From a virus, in IMG/VR virus record IMGVR_UViG_3300043446_003304, positions 1 through 22,280 of that record: a stretch of DNA of 22,280 bases. One strand, given 5' to 3'. Below the pieces are notes generated by a model. It was not told where the DNA came from and searched no databases. It saw only the letters and a program-made list of their open reading frames with translations. Positions 10,014 to 17,110 of this stretch are shown one piece after another. Numbering within the stretch: the first letter of the stretch is position 1; each line of letters opens with the position of its first letter. A program made the position numbers and the translations under genes.

Positions 10014-10068
10014 AAGATAAGTTTTTGGAATCGAACCAAGGTATCCTAATTGATTGCTGCCTTATCTT
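10014..10068 (-). repeat. Spacer RNA element copy S5 (with a T-arm-like hairpin)
   Basis: The stem AAGATAAG/CTTATCTT encloses GCAGCAATC, then a hairpin TTGG-TTCGATT-CCAA that is a perfect T loop, then AAA. It has the layout of the other spacer elements, but its inner hairpin is a tRNA T arm. It could therefore be a relic 3' half of a tRNA caught in an element or a minimal tRNA-like RNA. Confidence 0.6.
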
Positions 10069-10082
10069 AGATTTATTTAGCT

Positions 10083-10135
10083 AGGTAATTTTTGTTTTTC
10101 TCGATAACGGTAAGAAGTAAATTGCTGAATTACCT
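10083..10135 (-). repeat. Spacer RNA element copy S4
   Basis: 8-bp stem AGGTAATT/AATTACCT, then CAGCAATTT, an inner hairpin (TTCT/AGAA around TACCGTTATCG), then AAAACAAA. The stem bases differ from other copies but still pair. Confidence 0.75.
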
Positions 10136-10138
10136 AAA

Positions 10139-10256
10139 GCCGAAGCCGGGAATCGAACCCGGACCTTTTCTTAGCAGAGAAATGTAATAGAAATTGCTGT
10201 CCGTATCTAAAACTAGATAACCGATTGTTTAAGTGCTACCATTACACCACTTCGGC
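10139..10256 (-). tRNA. Interrupted tRNA gene A (anticodon uncertain)
   Basis: Acceptor GCCGAAG/CTTCGGC, D arm GTGT-AATGGTA-GCAC and T arm CCGGG-TTCGATT-CCCGG are perfect. About 48 bases (near 10183-10230) separate the D arm from the anticodon. The insert has the shared core AATCGG, hairpin TATCT-AGTTTT-AGATA, CGGACAGCAATTT, CTATTA. The downstream part TTTCT-CTGCTA-AGAAA would be the anticodon arm. GCU (Ser) or CUG (Gln) are the candidate anticodons; neither gives an ideal loop and no long variable arm exists. Confidence 0.7.
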
Positions 10257-10262
10257 AAAACT

Positions 10263-10314
10263 AGATAGTTGTTTTTTCCTCTATTGTTGGCGAGAATAAA
10301 TTGCTGAACTATCT
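10263..10314 (-). repeat. Spacer RNA element copy S3
   Basis: 8-bp stem AGATAGTT/AACTATCT, CAGCAATTT, inner hairpin CTC...GAG, then AAAAAACA. Followed by AGTTTT and directly by interrupted tRNA A. Confidence 0.78.
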
Positions 10315-10320
10315 ATAAGC

Positions 10321-10405
10321 GGAGAAGATAAGAGTCGAACTTATTAAGTATCGTGCAGTATTTATCTGAAACTAGATAACCTCCGGTCCCCCAGAGAGCT
10401 TCCCC
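10321..10405 (-). tRNA. tRNA-like gene E, atypical or degenerate
   Basis: Acceptor GGGGAAG/CTTCTCC and T arm ATAAG-TTCGACT-CTTAT are intact, and CTCT/GGAG may form a D stem. The middle holds TTATCT-AGTTTC-AGATAA, a relative of the hairpin inserted in tRNAs A-C, followed by about 17 bases without CAGCAATTT. No normal anticodon loop is visible. It is either a class II-like tRNA or a tRNA damaged by the insert. Confidence 0.45.
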
Positions 10406-10410
10406 ATAAA

Positions 10411-10430
10411 ACAGACAGAGAACTGTCTGA
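10411..10430 (-). other. Spacer hairpin with TTCT loop
   Basis: CAGACAG-TTCT-CTGTCTG between genes B and E. Probably a processing hairpin; the same place and loop recur at 10554-10573. Confidence 0.6.
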
Positions 10431-10431
10431 T

Positions 10432-10548
10432 ACCAGAACTAGGAATCGAACCTAGACTACCCCCTCCTCATGGTTAATAGAAATTGCTGTCCGTATCTAA
10501 AACTAGATAACCGATTTTTAAAGCGTGCTACCATTACACTATTCTGGT
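10432..10548 (-). tRNA. Interrupted tRNA gene B (possibly anticodon GAG)
   Basis: Acceptor ACCAGAA/TTCTGGT, D arm GTGT-AATGGTA-GCAC, T arm CTAGG-TTCGATT-CCTAG. About 47 bases (near 10475-10521) interrupt it after the first two bases of the anticodon stem, with the same core as gene A. The following loop ATGAGGA would give anticodon GAG (Leu), yet the variable arm is short, so the identity is doubtful. Confidence 0.7.
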
Positions 10549-10553
10549 GATTA

Positions 10554-10573
10554 ACAGATGGAGAACCATCTGA
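10554..10573 (-). other. Spacer hairpin with TTCT loop
   Basis: CAGATGG-TTCT-CCATCTG between genes C and B. The closing stem resembles the P1 stem of spacer element S1 (AGATGGTT/AACCATCT), which suggests that the elements are expanded versions of this hairpin. Confidence 0.6.
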
Positions 10574-10574
10574 C

Positions 10575-10690
10575 GCCGAGACTGGGACTCGAACCCAGAA
10601 CACTCCTTGAAACGAGGATAATAGAATTGCTGTCCGTATCTTAAACAAGATAACCGATTTTAGCGTTTTATCCAATTAAACTATCTCGGC
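10575..10690 (-). tRNA. Interrupted tRNA gene C (possibly Glu, UUC)
   Basis: Acceptor GCCGAGA/TCTCGGC, D arm GTTT-AATTGGATA-AAAC, T arm CTGGG-TTCGAGT-CCCAG. A 44-base insert (10618-10661) separates CT from CCT. Removing it rebuilds a perfect anticodon stem CTCCT/AGGAG around loop CGTTTCA. Position 33 would then be G, so the precise ends or the anticodon (TTC or TTT) remain open. Confidence 0.75.
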
Positions 10691-10696
10691 AAAACT

Positions 10697-10742
10697 AGAT
10701 GATTTTGTTTGCATAACCAAGCAGTAAATTGCTGAATCATCT
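10697..10742 (-). repeat. Spacer RNA element copy S2
   Basis: 8-bp stem AGATGATT/AATCATCT, CAGCAATTT, small hairpin TTG...CAA, then AAACAAA. Followed by AGTTTT and interrupted tRNA C. Confidence 0.78.
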
Positions 10743-10748
10743 ATGAGT

Positions 10749-16208: not shown

Positions 16209-16237
16209 AGAATACTACGAATGACCGCTAGAGTCAA
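16209..16237 (-). promoter_or_regulatory. Sigma70-type promoter
   Basis: Minus strand TTGACT (16232-16237), 17-nt spacer, TATTCT (16209-16214), upstream of the gene starting at 16186. Confidence 0.78.
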
Positions 16238-16245
16238 GTCGTAGG

Positions 16246-16265
16246 TGCCAGTTTAGAAACTGGCA
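16246..16265 (-). terminator. Hairpin closing tRNA cluster II
   Basis: TGCCAGTTT-CT-AAACTGGCA, a perfect 9-bp stem two bases after the last tRNA of the cluster. No T run follows, so it may be a processing or stability hairpin rather than an intrinsic terminator. Confidence 0.5.
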
Positions 16266-16267
16266 AT

Positions 16268-16341
16268 GTCCGAGGCGGGATTTGAACCCGCACTGCCTAC
16301 CCCCTCAAGATAGTGCCTCCTACCAATTGCGCTACTCGGAC
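16268..16341 (-). tRNA. tRNA, anticodon probably GAG (Leu), short variable arm
   Basis: Acceptor GTCCGAG/CTCGGAC and T arm GCGGG-TTCAAAT-CCCGC are perfect. The anticodon arm CTATC-TTGAGGG-GGTAG gives GAG. The D stem is poor (GCGC has no clear partner) and the variable arm has five bases, so the charging identity is doubtful. Confidence 0.7.
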
Positions 16342-16345
16342 TGGT

Positions 16346-16416
16346 TCCAGAACTAGGATTCGAACCTAGATAAACGCCTTCAAAGGGCGGTGTCCTGCCA
16401 GTTAGACGATTCTGGA
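16346..16416 (-). tRNA. tRNA-Gln(UUG)
   Basis: Acceptor TCCAGAA/TTCTGGA, D arm GTC/GAC, anticodon loop CTTTGAA, T arm CTAGG-TTCGAAT-CCTAG. Confidence 0.88.
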
Positions 16417-16423
16417 TTGGAGC

Positions 16424-16492
16424 ACCGGGTCGGATTTGAACCGATGACATCAACCTTGGCAAGGTTGCGTTCTACCACTGAACTAAATCCTC
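16424..16492 (-). tRNA. tRNA-Gly(GCC) with a broken acceptor stem
   Basis: D arm GTTC-AGTGGTA-GAAC, anticodon arm CAACC-TTGCCAA-GGTTG and T arm ATCGG-TTCAAAT-CCGAT are perfect. The acceptor strands GAGGATT and ACCCGGT barely pair. Either the 5' end was replaced by recombination or the gene is dead. Confidence 0.7.
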
Positions 16493-16564
16493 AATTAGAA
16501 GGAAACTGTTTTTAGTCCACTTAAACTACCCCGCAACCCATGGTTAGGGAATGCCCCTGACGGG
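16493..16564 (-). pseudogene. tRNA 5'-half fragment plus a small three-way-junction hairpin set
   Basis: 16500-16534 holds a D-arm-like GTTT-AAGTGGACTA-AAAC after GCGGGGTA, resembling the 5' half of a tRNA that ends abruptly at tRNA-Gly(GCC). Upstream (16530-16565) CCCG/CGGG encloses GGG-GCATT-CCC and AACC-ATG-GGTT. No T arm is present. I read it as tRNA debris; a small structured RNA is the alternative. Confidence 0.4.
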
Positions 16565-16635
16565 CTCCATTAGTGCTGGATCTGGATTCGAACCATGATC
16601 TTTTTCCTTCTATGGTACATAAAGTACCAATGGAG
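16565..16635 (-). pseudogene. tRNA-like remnant closed by CTCCATT/AATGGAG
   Basis: A 7-bp stem encloses hairpin TGGTAC-TTTAT-GTACCA and a T-loop TGG-TTCGAAT-CCA with only three pairs, followed by extra bases. There is no anticodon arm. It overlaps the 3' end of tRNA-Ala by four bases. Confidence 0.45.
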
Positions 16636-16703
16636 AATAGGGGACTCGAACCCCTGACATTCTGCTTGCAAAGCAGACGCTCTACCAACTGAGCTAAGAC
16701 CCC
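16632..16703 (-). tRNA. tRNA-Ala(UGC)
   Basis: D arm GCTC-AGTTGGTA-GAGC, anticodon arm TCTGC-TTTGCAA-GCAGA, T arm AGGGG-TTCGAGT-CCCCT. The acceptor has two mismatches (GGGGTCT with ATTCTCC). Confidence 0.85.
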
Positions 16704-16712
16704 ATTTGGCGG

Positions 16713-16771
16713 CCATTTTGTTAAAGCGGTATAGCCGAACCGCATCAATGGAGAATGTTTGGACCATTCTC
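16713..16771 (-). other. tRNA spacer with two hairpins
   Basis: CCATT/AATGG (16713-16751) encloses GCGGT-TCGGCT-ATACCGC, the same two-stem layout as the S elements but without CAGCAATTT. GAGAATG-GTCCAAA-CATTCTC (16751-16771) is a second perfect 7-bp hairpin. Confidence 0.5.
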
Positions 16772-16775
16772 AAGT

Positions 16776-16847
16776 CGGGAATGAAGGAATCGAACCTTCT
16801 TCGCCGCTTCCCAAAAGCGGAGTGTTAAACCAGTATACTAATTCCCG
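16776..16847 (-). tRNA. tRNA-Pro(UGG)
   Basis: Acceptor CGGGAAT/ATTCCCG, anticodon arm CCGCT-TTTGGGA-AGCGG, T arm GAAGG-TTCGATT-CCTTC. Confidence 0.9.
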
Positions 16848-16964
16848 ATTGACAGAGAGACTATCTAGAATTATCTCCCCGGCCTAGAAATTCTAGGACT
16901 TAGCCTGATGTTCATAAGAACAGAGCAGTGACAGTGTATTTAGAAGTGAACCAAATACACGAGT
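16848..16964 (-). other. Structured spacer without a recognised gene
   Basis: Contains perfect hairpins GTGTATTT...AAATACAC (16936-16960), GTTC-TTAT-GAAC, and CCTAGAA-T-TTCTAGG. No T-arm consensus is seen. It may be a decayed tRNA or processing spacer. Confidence 0.4.
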
Positions 16965-17054
16965 AGGAGAGGAGGGAATCGAACCCCCGATGGTTCCTAT
17001 GTAACCGCTTTACAGGCGGCAGCCACACATATTGCCAACAGTAGCCACACTCCC
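16965..17054 (-). tRNA. tRNA-Tyr(GUA), class II
   Basis: Anticodon arm GCCGC-CTGTAAA-GCGGT, long variable arm before a G-rich T stem with TTCGATT, D stem GCTAC/GTGGC with a long loop. The acceptor GGGAGTG/CTCTCCT has one mismatch. Confidence 0.85.
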
Positions 17055-17060
17055 AAAACT

Positions 17061-17110
17061 AGATGATTGTTTTTCTACCCAAAAGAAAGTAAGAAATTGC
17101 TGAATCATCT
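17061..17110 (-). repeat. Spacer RNA element copy S6
   Basis: 8-bp stem AGATGATT/AATCATCT, CAGCAATTT, inner hairpin TTTCT-TTTGGGT-AGAAA, then AACA; followed by AGTTTT and tRNA-Tyr. The only copy of this family in tRNA cluster II. Confidence 0.78.

Follow-up and report, generated by a model that had tools for sequence, protein, structure and literature searches.

The window analyzed in this study is the whole 22,280-nt stretch of the IMG/VR virus record IMGVR_UViG_3300043446_003304, in which ARAGORN assigns 17 tRNAs, every one of them on the minus strand. Seven copies of a small structured RNA element, four tRNA genes that contain the same module in a permuted order, and a gene for a putative Ro60-like RNA-binding protein lie in this region (Table 1), and the present analysis concerns these RNAs and this gene.

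Spacer elements and modules embedded in tRNA genes

A previous reading of this DNA, which was made without database searches (hereafter the sequence-only reading), had pointed out seven structured elements sharing one layout, and all of them are present on the minus strand, which is also the strand of the tRNA genes. From 5' to 3', a P1 stem of about 8 bp opens the element; CAGCAAT and an inner hairpin that varies among copies come next, and an A-rich strand leads to the returning strand P1'. P1 is a perfect 8-bp stem in each copy, that of 17061 having 7 bp when the final A-T pair is counted apart, and the core is preceded by one additional G in 10014 and by one additional A in 13307. The interior of 10014 is composed of CAGCAAT, a small hairpin and then a sequence resembling a tRNA T arm, TTGG-TTCGATT-CCAA. 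The spacer elements are located between tRNA genes and often 6 nt ahead of a tRNA 5' end. In the copy at 13307, which lies in the 5' leader of the Ro-like gene, the P1 pairing extends into GGAG, the ribosome-binding site of that gene; a leader element like this has been found at the same position in at least eight relatives.

A covariance model, whose training set includes six window copies and excludes 10014, recovers these six at E values of 3e-7 to 6e-6 and the seventh, 10014, at 0.004. Further copies, for which the sequence-only reading had recommended such a search, are widespread in phages: covariance model R1 gives 46 matches across 23 phage records, 31 of which, by our own count, are no more than 5 kb from a Ro-like gene. 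We also examined contigs fetched without using P1 and asked how often a perfect 8-bp partner is present 15–80 nt downstream; this was the case for 28 of 362 CAGCAA sites and for 67 of 10,135 sites (0.66%) when those six letters were permuted in every other way (p = 5e-19). When the loci were chosen solely by the Ro-like protein, a 7-bp partner was found at 25 of 107 CAGCAA sites and at 134 of 3,783 control sites (p = 3e-13). The compensatory changes claimed for P1 are borne out at six of six tested pairs, and all slid pairings are much worse, but many of the aligned elements had been picked for pairing, and therefore the aforementioned partner test of CAGCAA is the cleaner evidence. No Rfam family matches the elements at either gathering or relaxed thresholds.

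The CAGCAATT core is present also inside four tRNA genes of the window (10191-10199, 10481-10489, 10624-10632 and 10797-10805), a point overlooked by the sequence-only reading. In these genes the order of parts is the A-rich strand, P1', a short loop of the GTTT type, P1 and CAGCAATT, that is, a circular permutation of the spacer element, and the insert of about 38–48 nt breaks the 5' strand of the anticodon stem, mostly after nucleotide 28 (27–29). Scans of IMG/VR gave 108 stretches for the spacer form, chance matches among them, and 64 stretches for the embedded form, and from the scanned stretches 67 tRNA genes with an embedded module were parsed. Leaving the module out restores a full 5-bp anticodon stem in 60 of the 67, and 51 of these 60 have a 7-nt loop, which is accompanied by U33 in 37. 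Anticodon loops of 6, 8, 9 and 10 nt are also seen among the parsed genes, and three of the four embedded genes in the window have irregular anticodon loops. Among embedded genes that are orthologous, the anticodons are unrelated (GCA, GTA and CCA in one set; TAC, CAT and TCC in another), and the anticodons of embedded genes often duplicate ones found in intact tRNAs of the genome concerned. The homologue of the 10748-10861 gene in Synechococcus phage B23 is annotated as tRNA-OTHER, and this phage has spacer elements as well.

Two further sequences resemble these genes. A tRNA-like sequence at 10321-10405 (minus strand) has a hairpin, GTTATCTAGTTTCAGATAA, which is similar to the embedded module, with the core broken and with no Rfam score, and Aeromonas phage Aeh1 (L184, 8151-8272) has an annotated 122-nt tRNA-Val with a comparable insert, in which CCGCAAAT replaces CAGCAAT.

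Table 1. Coordinates of the putative Y RNA elements, the tRNA genes with embedded modules and the Ro-like gene in the window
Feature	Position	Strand	Remarks
Putative Y RNA element, T-arm type	10014..10068	-	P1 AAGATAAG, P1' CTTATCTT; covariance E 0.004
Putative short Y RNA element	10083..10135	-	P1 AGGTAATT/AATTACCT; covariance E 3e-7
tRNA gene with embedded permuted module	10138..10256	-	Module ~10183-10230; 6-nt loop CTGCTA (best pairing)
Putative short Y RNA element	10263..10314	-	P1 AGATAGTT/AACTATCT; covariance match
tRNA gene with embedded permuted module	10431..10548	-	Module ~10474-10520; anticodon GAG, 7-nt loop with U33
tRNA gene with embedded permuted module	10574..10690	-	Module ~10618-10661; 7-nt loop CGTTTCA without U33
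Putative short Y RNA element	10697..10742	-	P1 AGATGATT/AATCATCT; covariance match
tRNA gene with embedded permuted module	10748..10861	-	Module ~10793-10831; 8-nt loop ACTTGAAA
Putative short Y RNA element, first of array	10869..10926	-	P1 AGATGGTT/AACCATCT; covariance match
Putative Ro60-like RNA-binding protein	11825..13294	-	DUF2828 + DUF7788; PHROG 850 'RNA-binding protein'
Putative Y RNA element, 5' leader of Ro-like gene	13307..13356	-	P1 AAGTTGAT/ATCAACTT
Putative short Y RNA element, between tRNA-Lys and tRNA-Gly	17061..17110	-	P1 AGATGATT/ATCATCT

In all, the module has been found in three layouts: short hairpins, RNAs that end at P1 and enclose a permuted tRNA (YrlA-like), and tRNA genes with normal ends and an embedded module, in which P1 is closed by a short loop inside the anticodon arm. 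RNAs of the second layout were found in Faith1, the Felix O1-like Escherichia phage JH2, two Bacillus phages, a Clostridia contig (L207) and two IMG/VR loci (L118 and L130); in the last two, the embedded and permuted forms are present side by side. As in YrlA, the enclosed tRNA starts with its 3' half and has a loop closing its acceptor stem. After rotation and removal of the module, ARAGORN assigned the RNA of Faith1 to tRNA-Asn(GTT), that of the Clostridia contig to tRNA-Thr(GGT) and that of Bacillus phage vB_BcoS-136 to tRNA-Cys(GCA), and it recognized cloverleaves with no anticodon called in JH2 and FADO. In addition, the Clostridia RNA has the same anticodon stem (ACGGC/GCCGT) and insertion point as one class of embedded tRNAs in cyanophage-like contigs. 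Therefore, the YrlA-like RNA, which ends at P1 and has a closed acceptor stem, and the embedded tRNA gene, which ends at the acceptor stem and has a closed P1, are circular permutations of each other, their common design being a tRNA cloverleaf whose anticodon stem accommodates the putative docking module.

The Ro-like gene and its co-occurrence with the elements

The gene at 11825-13294, which also escaped the sequence-only reading, is a member of a family whose mycobacteriophage homologues are annotated as 'Ro-like RNA binding protein'. A structure model based on an alignment of 20 homologues has a pLDDT (predicted local distance difference test score) of 83, and superseded a poor single-sequence model (pLDDT 43). 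The best PDB matches of this model are all TROVE/Ro60 proteins, with Foldseek E values of 9e-8 to 5e-5 and VIA Z scores of 14.2 to 12.2 for the top four structures (9kop, 9l5y, 2nvo and 1yvp), including Ro60 of Thermus phage phiLo (9l5y) and Rsr of Deinococcus (2nvo). The predicted fold has the helical-repeat ring plus vWA domain characteristic of Ro60. Sequence searches of PDB with the protein did not reach Ro60, and Pfam gave only DUF2828 and DUF7788, with no match to TROVE (PF05731). On the basis of the model, we regard the product as Ro60-like in its predicted fold.

Of 38 element-bearing records, 31 carry a Ro-like gene, and the fetched stretches contain 37 open reading frames belonging to its DUF2828 family; as background, the protein has hits in 682 of the 50,697 phage records. 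Among 15 diverse phages whose loci were picked by the protein alone, 10 have P1-CAGCAA-P1' RNAs at the gene, and the hosts of the Ro-like phages with such adjoining RNAs (Mycobacterium, Bacillus, Listeria, Campylobacter and Staphylococcus) are mutually unrelated. In Faith1 and Campylobacter phage Los1, the element adjoins the Ro-like gene with no tRNA array there. Bacterial and archaeal genomes were also scanned for the motif, with a pattern free of Ro information; of the 30 loci obtained, at least six (Clostridia, Treponema and a proteobacterial bin) have a DUF2828/DUF7788 gene within the same few kilobases. Model R1 gave zero matches in tRNA-rich S-CRM01, which has neither DUF2828 nor TROVE and is the sole clean Ro-negative control. 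Mycobacterium phage Myrna (L218-L221) was dropped as a control; it lacks DUF2828 but carries a true TROVE (PF05731) gene. This TROVE gene is far from the tRNA cluster, and because no CAGCAA element adjoins it, the motif may be confined to DUF2828-type Ro proteins.

RNA ligase genes are also found near the Ro-like gene in some records. Rnl1 is within about 2 kb in IMG/VR records G032 and G035, a PF09414 ligase is upstream in Cronobacter phage GAP32 (L178), and RtcB is a few genes downstream in Listeria phage LP-125 (L175).

Probable phage Y RNAs and alternative explanations

Because of the link to a Ro60-like gene, the basal stem and the tRNA-like partners, we group the elements with bacterial and phage Y RNAs, and it is probable that they are Y RNA modules, at which the Ro60-like protein encoded by the phage itself would dock. 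As in known Y RNAs, the elements are close to a Ro60 relative, their 5' and 3' ends form a basal stem (P1 in all seven copies), and at least one tRNA-like domain is present in the genome; in the window, this is represented by the four embedded tRNAs and the T-arm copy at 10014, and complete permuted tRNA domains have been found in other Ro-like phages. The sequence-only reading knew of no described RNA family with this consensus, which holds as far as Rfam families are concerned, but the kind itself, Y RNAs, is already known; phage Y RNAs were reportedly covered, together with bacterial ones, by Chen et al. 2014 (RNA 20:1715), a study cited in PMC12282133. Among the functions which that reading offered, protein binding appears to be the right guess in view of the Ro-like neighbor.

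Bacterial YrlA attaches through its basal stem to Rsr, a Ro60 relative, and its tRNA-like end serves as a tether for the exonuclease PNPase (PMC8394870). The rsr-yrlBA-rtcBA operon of Salmonella responds to cleavage of tRNA anticodon loops, and the authors raised the possibility of competitive inhibition of the nuclease by YrlA (PMC7790460). Y RNAs have been proposed also near the Rsr homologue of a Listeria phage (PMC12282133). The Ro-like protein here would grip P1 and the junction of CAGCAAT with the A-rich strand, and the tRNA-like part would act as a mimic, which either recruits a tRNA-handling enzyme or absorbs the attack of a host anticodon nuclease. The leader copy at 13307 would let the Ro-like protein regulate its own synthesis. 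We favor a mimic over a decoding tRNA because the anticodons of orthologs are unrelated and often duplicate those of intact tRNAs, and because about 4 in 10 of the 60 genes with a restored stem have no 7-nt loop with U33.

The system shares with YrlA the neighboring Ro60 relative and the end-to-end basal stem and, in the relatives L173, L174, L176 and L207, a tRNA-like domain in permuted order with T, D and acceptor arms. It differs from YrlA in having many minimal hairpins across a tRNA array and in carrying the module also in tRNA genes that end at the acceptor stem; the protein, while resembling Ro60/Rsr (TROVE) in its predicted fold, belongs to the Pfam families DUF2828/DUF7788. We found no earlier description of the tRNA-embedded form, in a comparison that did not extend to primary Y RNA papers, and as far as could be checked, two features are new: the minimal Y hairpins arrayed in many copies between tRNA genes and, above all, the permuted module in tRNA genes.

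Several results weigh against the assignment to Y RNAs. DUF2828 was not found in seven of the 38 element-bearing records, some of which are fragments or chance matches, and neither DUF2828 nor TROVE was found in G029 (206 kb), which has both embedded and permuted forms; conversely, five of the 15 Ro-like phages have no P1-CAGCAA-P1' RNA at the gene. The Rfam model of YrlA (RF02553, gathering score 69 bits) gives no match to the window elements, and what it matches below threshold in relatives is a tRNA or the tRNA-like part, not CAGCAAT. Ro binding and the tRNA-mimic function, furthermore, are what we infer from these comparisons.

The embedded modules might instead be small tRNA introns, which are removed to yield working tRNAs, the YrlA-like and spacer forms being permuted intron-exon forms; a nuclease and a phage RNA ligase would cut and seal, with the Ro-like protein as a chaperone. 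This explanation, which we regard as unlikely, agrees with the aforementioned restoration of anticodon stems and 7-nt loops and with the finding that permuted RNAs become recognizable tRNAs once rotated and module-free, and an Rnl1-type ligase is present in 15 and a PF09414-type ligase in 18 of 22 records. However, RtcB was not found in the 22 records and was rejected as a shared partner, and U33 is missing or the loop size deviates in the remainder of the 60 genes and in most window copies; unrelated anticodons in orthologs and repeats of the anticodons of intact tRNAs are not what working tRNAs would lead us to expect, and bacterial YrlA has been described as a stable modular RNA (PMC8394870). 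The inserts resemble archaeal and eukaryotic tRNA introns and permuted tRNA genes in lying in the anticodon region and in having permuted versions, but they have the P1 plus CAGCAAT structure, and no bulge-helix-bulge was recognized, with no dedicated modeling of that motif; their sites, mostly after nucleotide 27–29, differ from the 37/38 position of bulge-helix-bulge introns. They are also far shorter than a group I core of about 200 nt or more and have no RF00028 match. That the presumed Ro-docking module represents a novel type of intron, excised by the Ro-like protein and an RNA ligase so that both embedded tRNAs and permuted Y RNAs mature into tRNAs, seems improbable to us; if this were true, Y RNAs of such type would be permuted tRNA precursors.

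Two further explanations were considered. For the spacer elements, processing or punctuation hairpins of the tRNA transcript, with no special partner, would suit the location between tRNA genes and often just ahead of a tRNA 5' end, and plain TTCT-loop hairpins are similarly placed near 10411 and 10554; nothing supports the proposal of the sequence-only reading that the element grew out of the latter. Such hairpins do not need an invariant CAGCAA core, and the element is found also upstream of the Ro-like gene, in its leader, as well as next to this gene in phages with no local tRNA array, so we judge this explanation very unlikely. A small ribozyme, another function which that reading had offered, is unsupported; that the element cleaves itself and thereby trims the tRNA transcript has hardly any probability in our estimate. 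Known ribozymes do have an invariant core and circularly permuted layouts, and theta ribozymes are likewise structured RNAs adjoining phage tRNA genes (PMC10879173), but these are hepatitis delta virus (HDV)-like self-cleaving RNAs, whereas the present elements have no such Rfam match, and the link to the Ro-like gene would be left unexplained. We have thus rejected both as main explanations on the basis of the invariant core, the Ro-like gene link and the lack of an Rfam ribozyme match.

The purpose of the Ro proteins widespread in bacteria and phages is poorly understood, and in this phage many presumed Ro-docking RNAs are woven into a tRNA array. The P1/CAGCAAT/A-rich motif can be a handle for finding RNAs of DUF2828-type Ro proteins, which Rfam overlooks. 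The design shared by YrlA-type Y RNAs and these tRNA genes includes a complete anticodon arm, and poses testable questions: whether the anticodons are decoys for host anticodon nucleases, whether the RNAs take part in RNA repair, or whether the module is spliced.

Other features of the region

Three homing-endonuclease-like genes (10985-11725, 13530-14000 and 14495-15184, minus strand) lie within the region of tRNAs and putative Y RNAs; two encode HNH proteins, and one encodes a protein with repeated KSKELGLG-type motifs and no Pfam match. A further tRNA gene, at about 17850-18125, appears to be split by a group I intron (17890-18089, minus strand; RF00028, 61.8 bits). Leu-anticodon tRNAs at 14212-14364 and 16267-16341 (minus strand) are short (75–77 nt) and are possibly further mimics; the usual long-arm Leu tRNAs are at 18151-18234 and 18714-18794 (minus strand). 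Just upstream of the leader element at 13307, a cloverleaf not called by ARAGORN is present at about 13370-13444 (minus strand), with an acceptor stem GCCCGAT/ATCGGGC and an unusual T loop GGCAGAA. A long near-perfect inverted repeat (CCCCTTTTGGTATTATGG and its complement) is found at about 17340-17400, downstream of the tRNA-Lys region. In one relative (L120), an abiF RNA match above the gathering score (8281-8317, 44.5 bits) lies near the same tRNA array.

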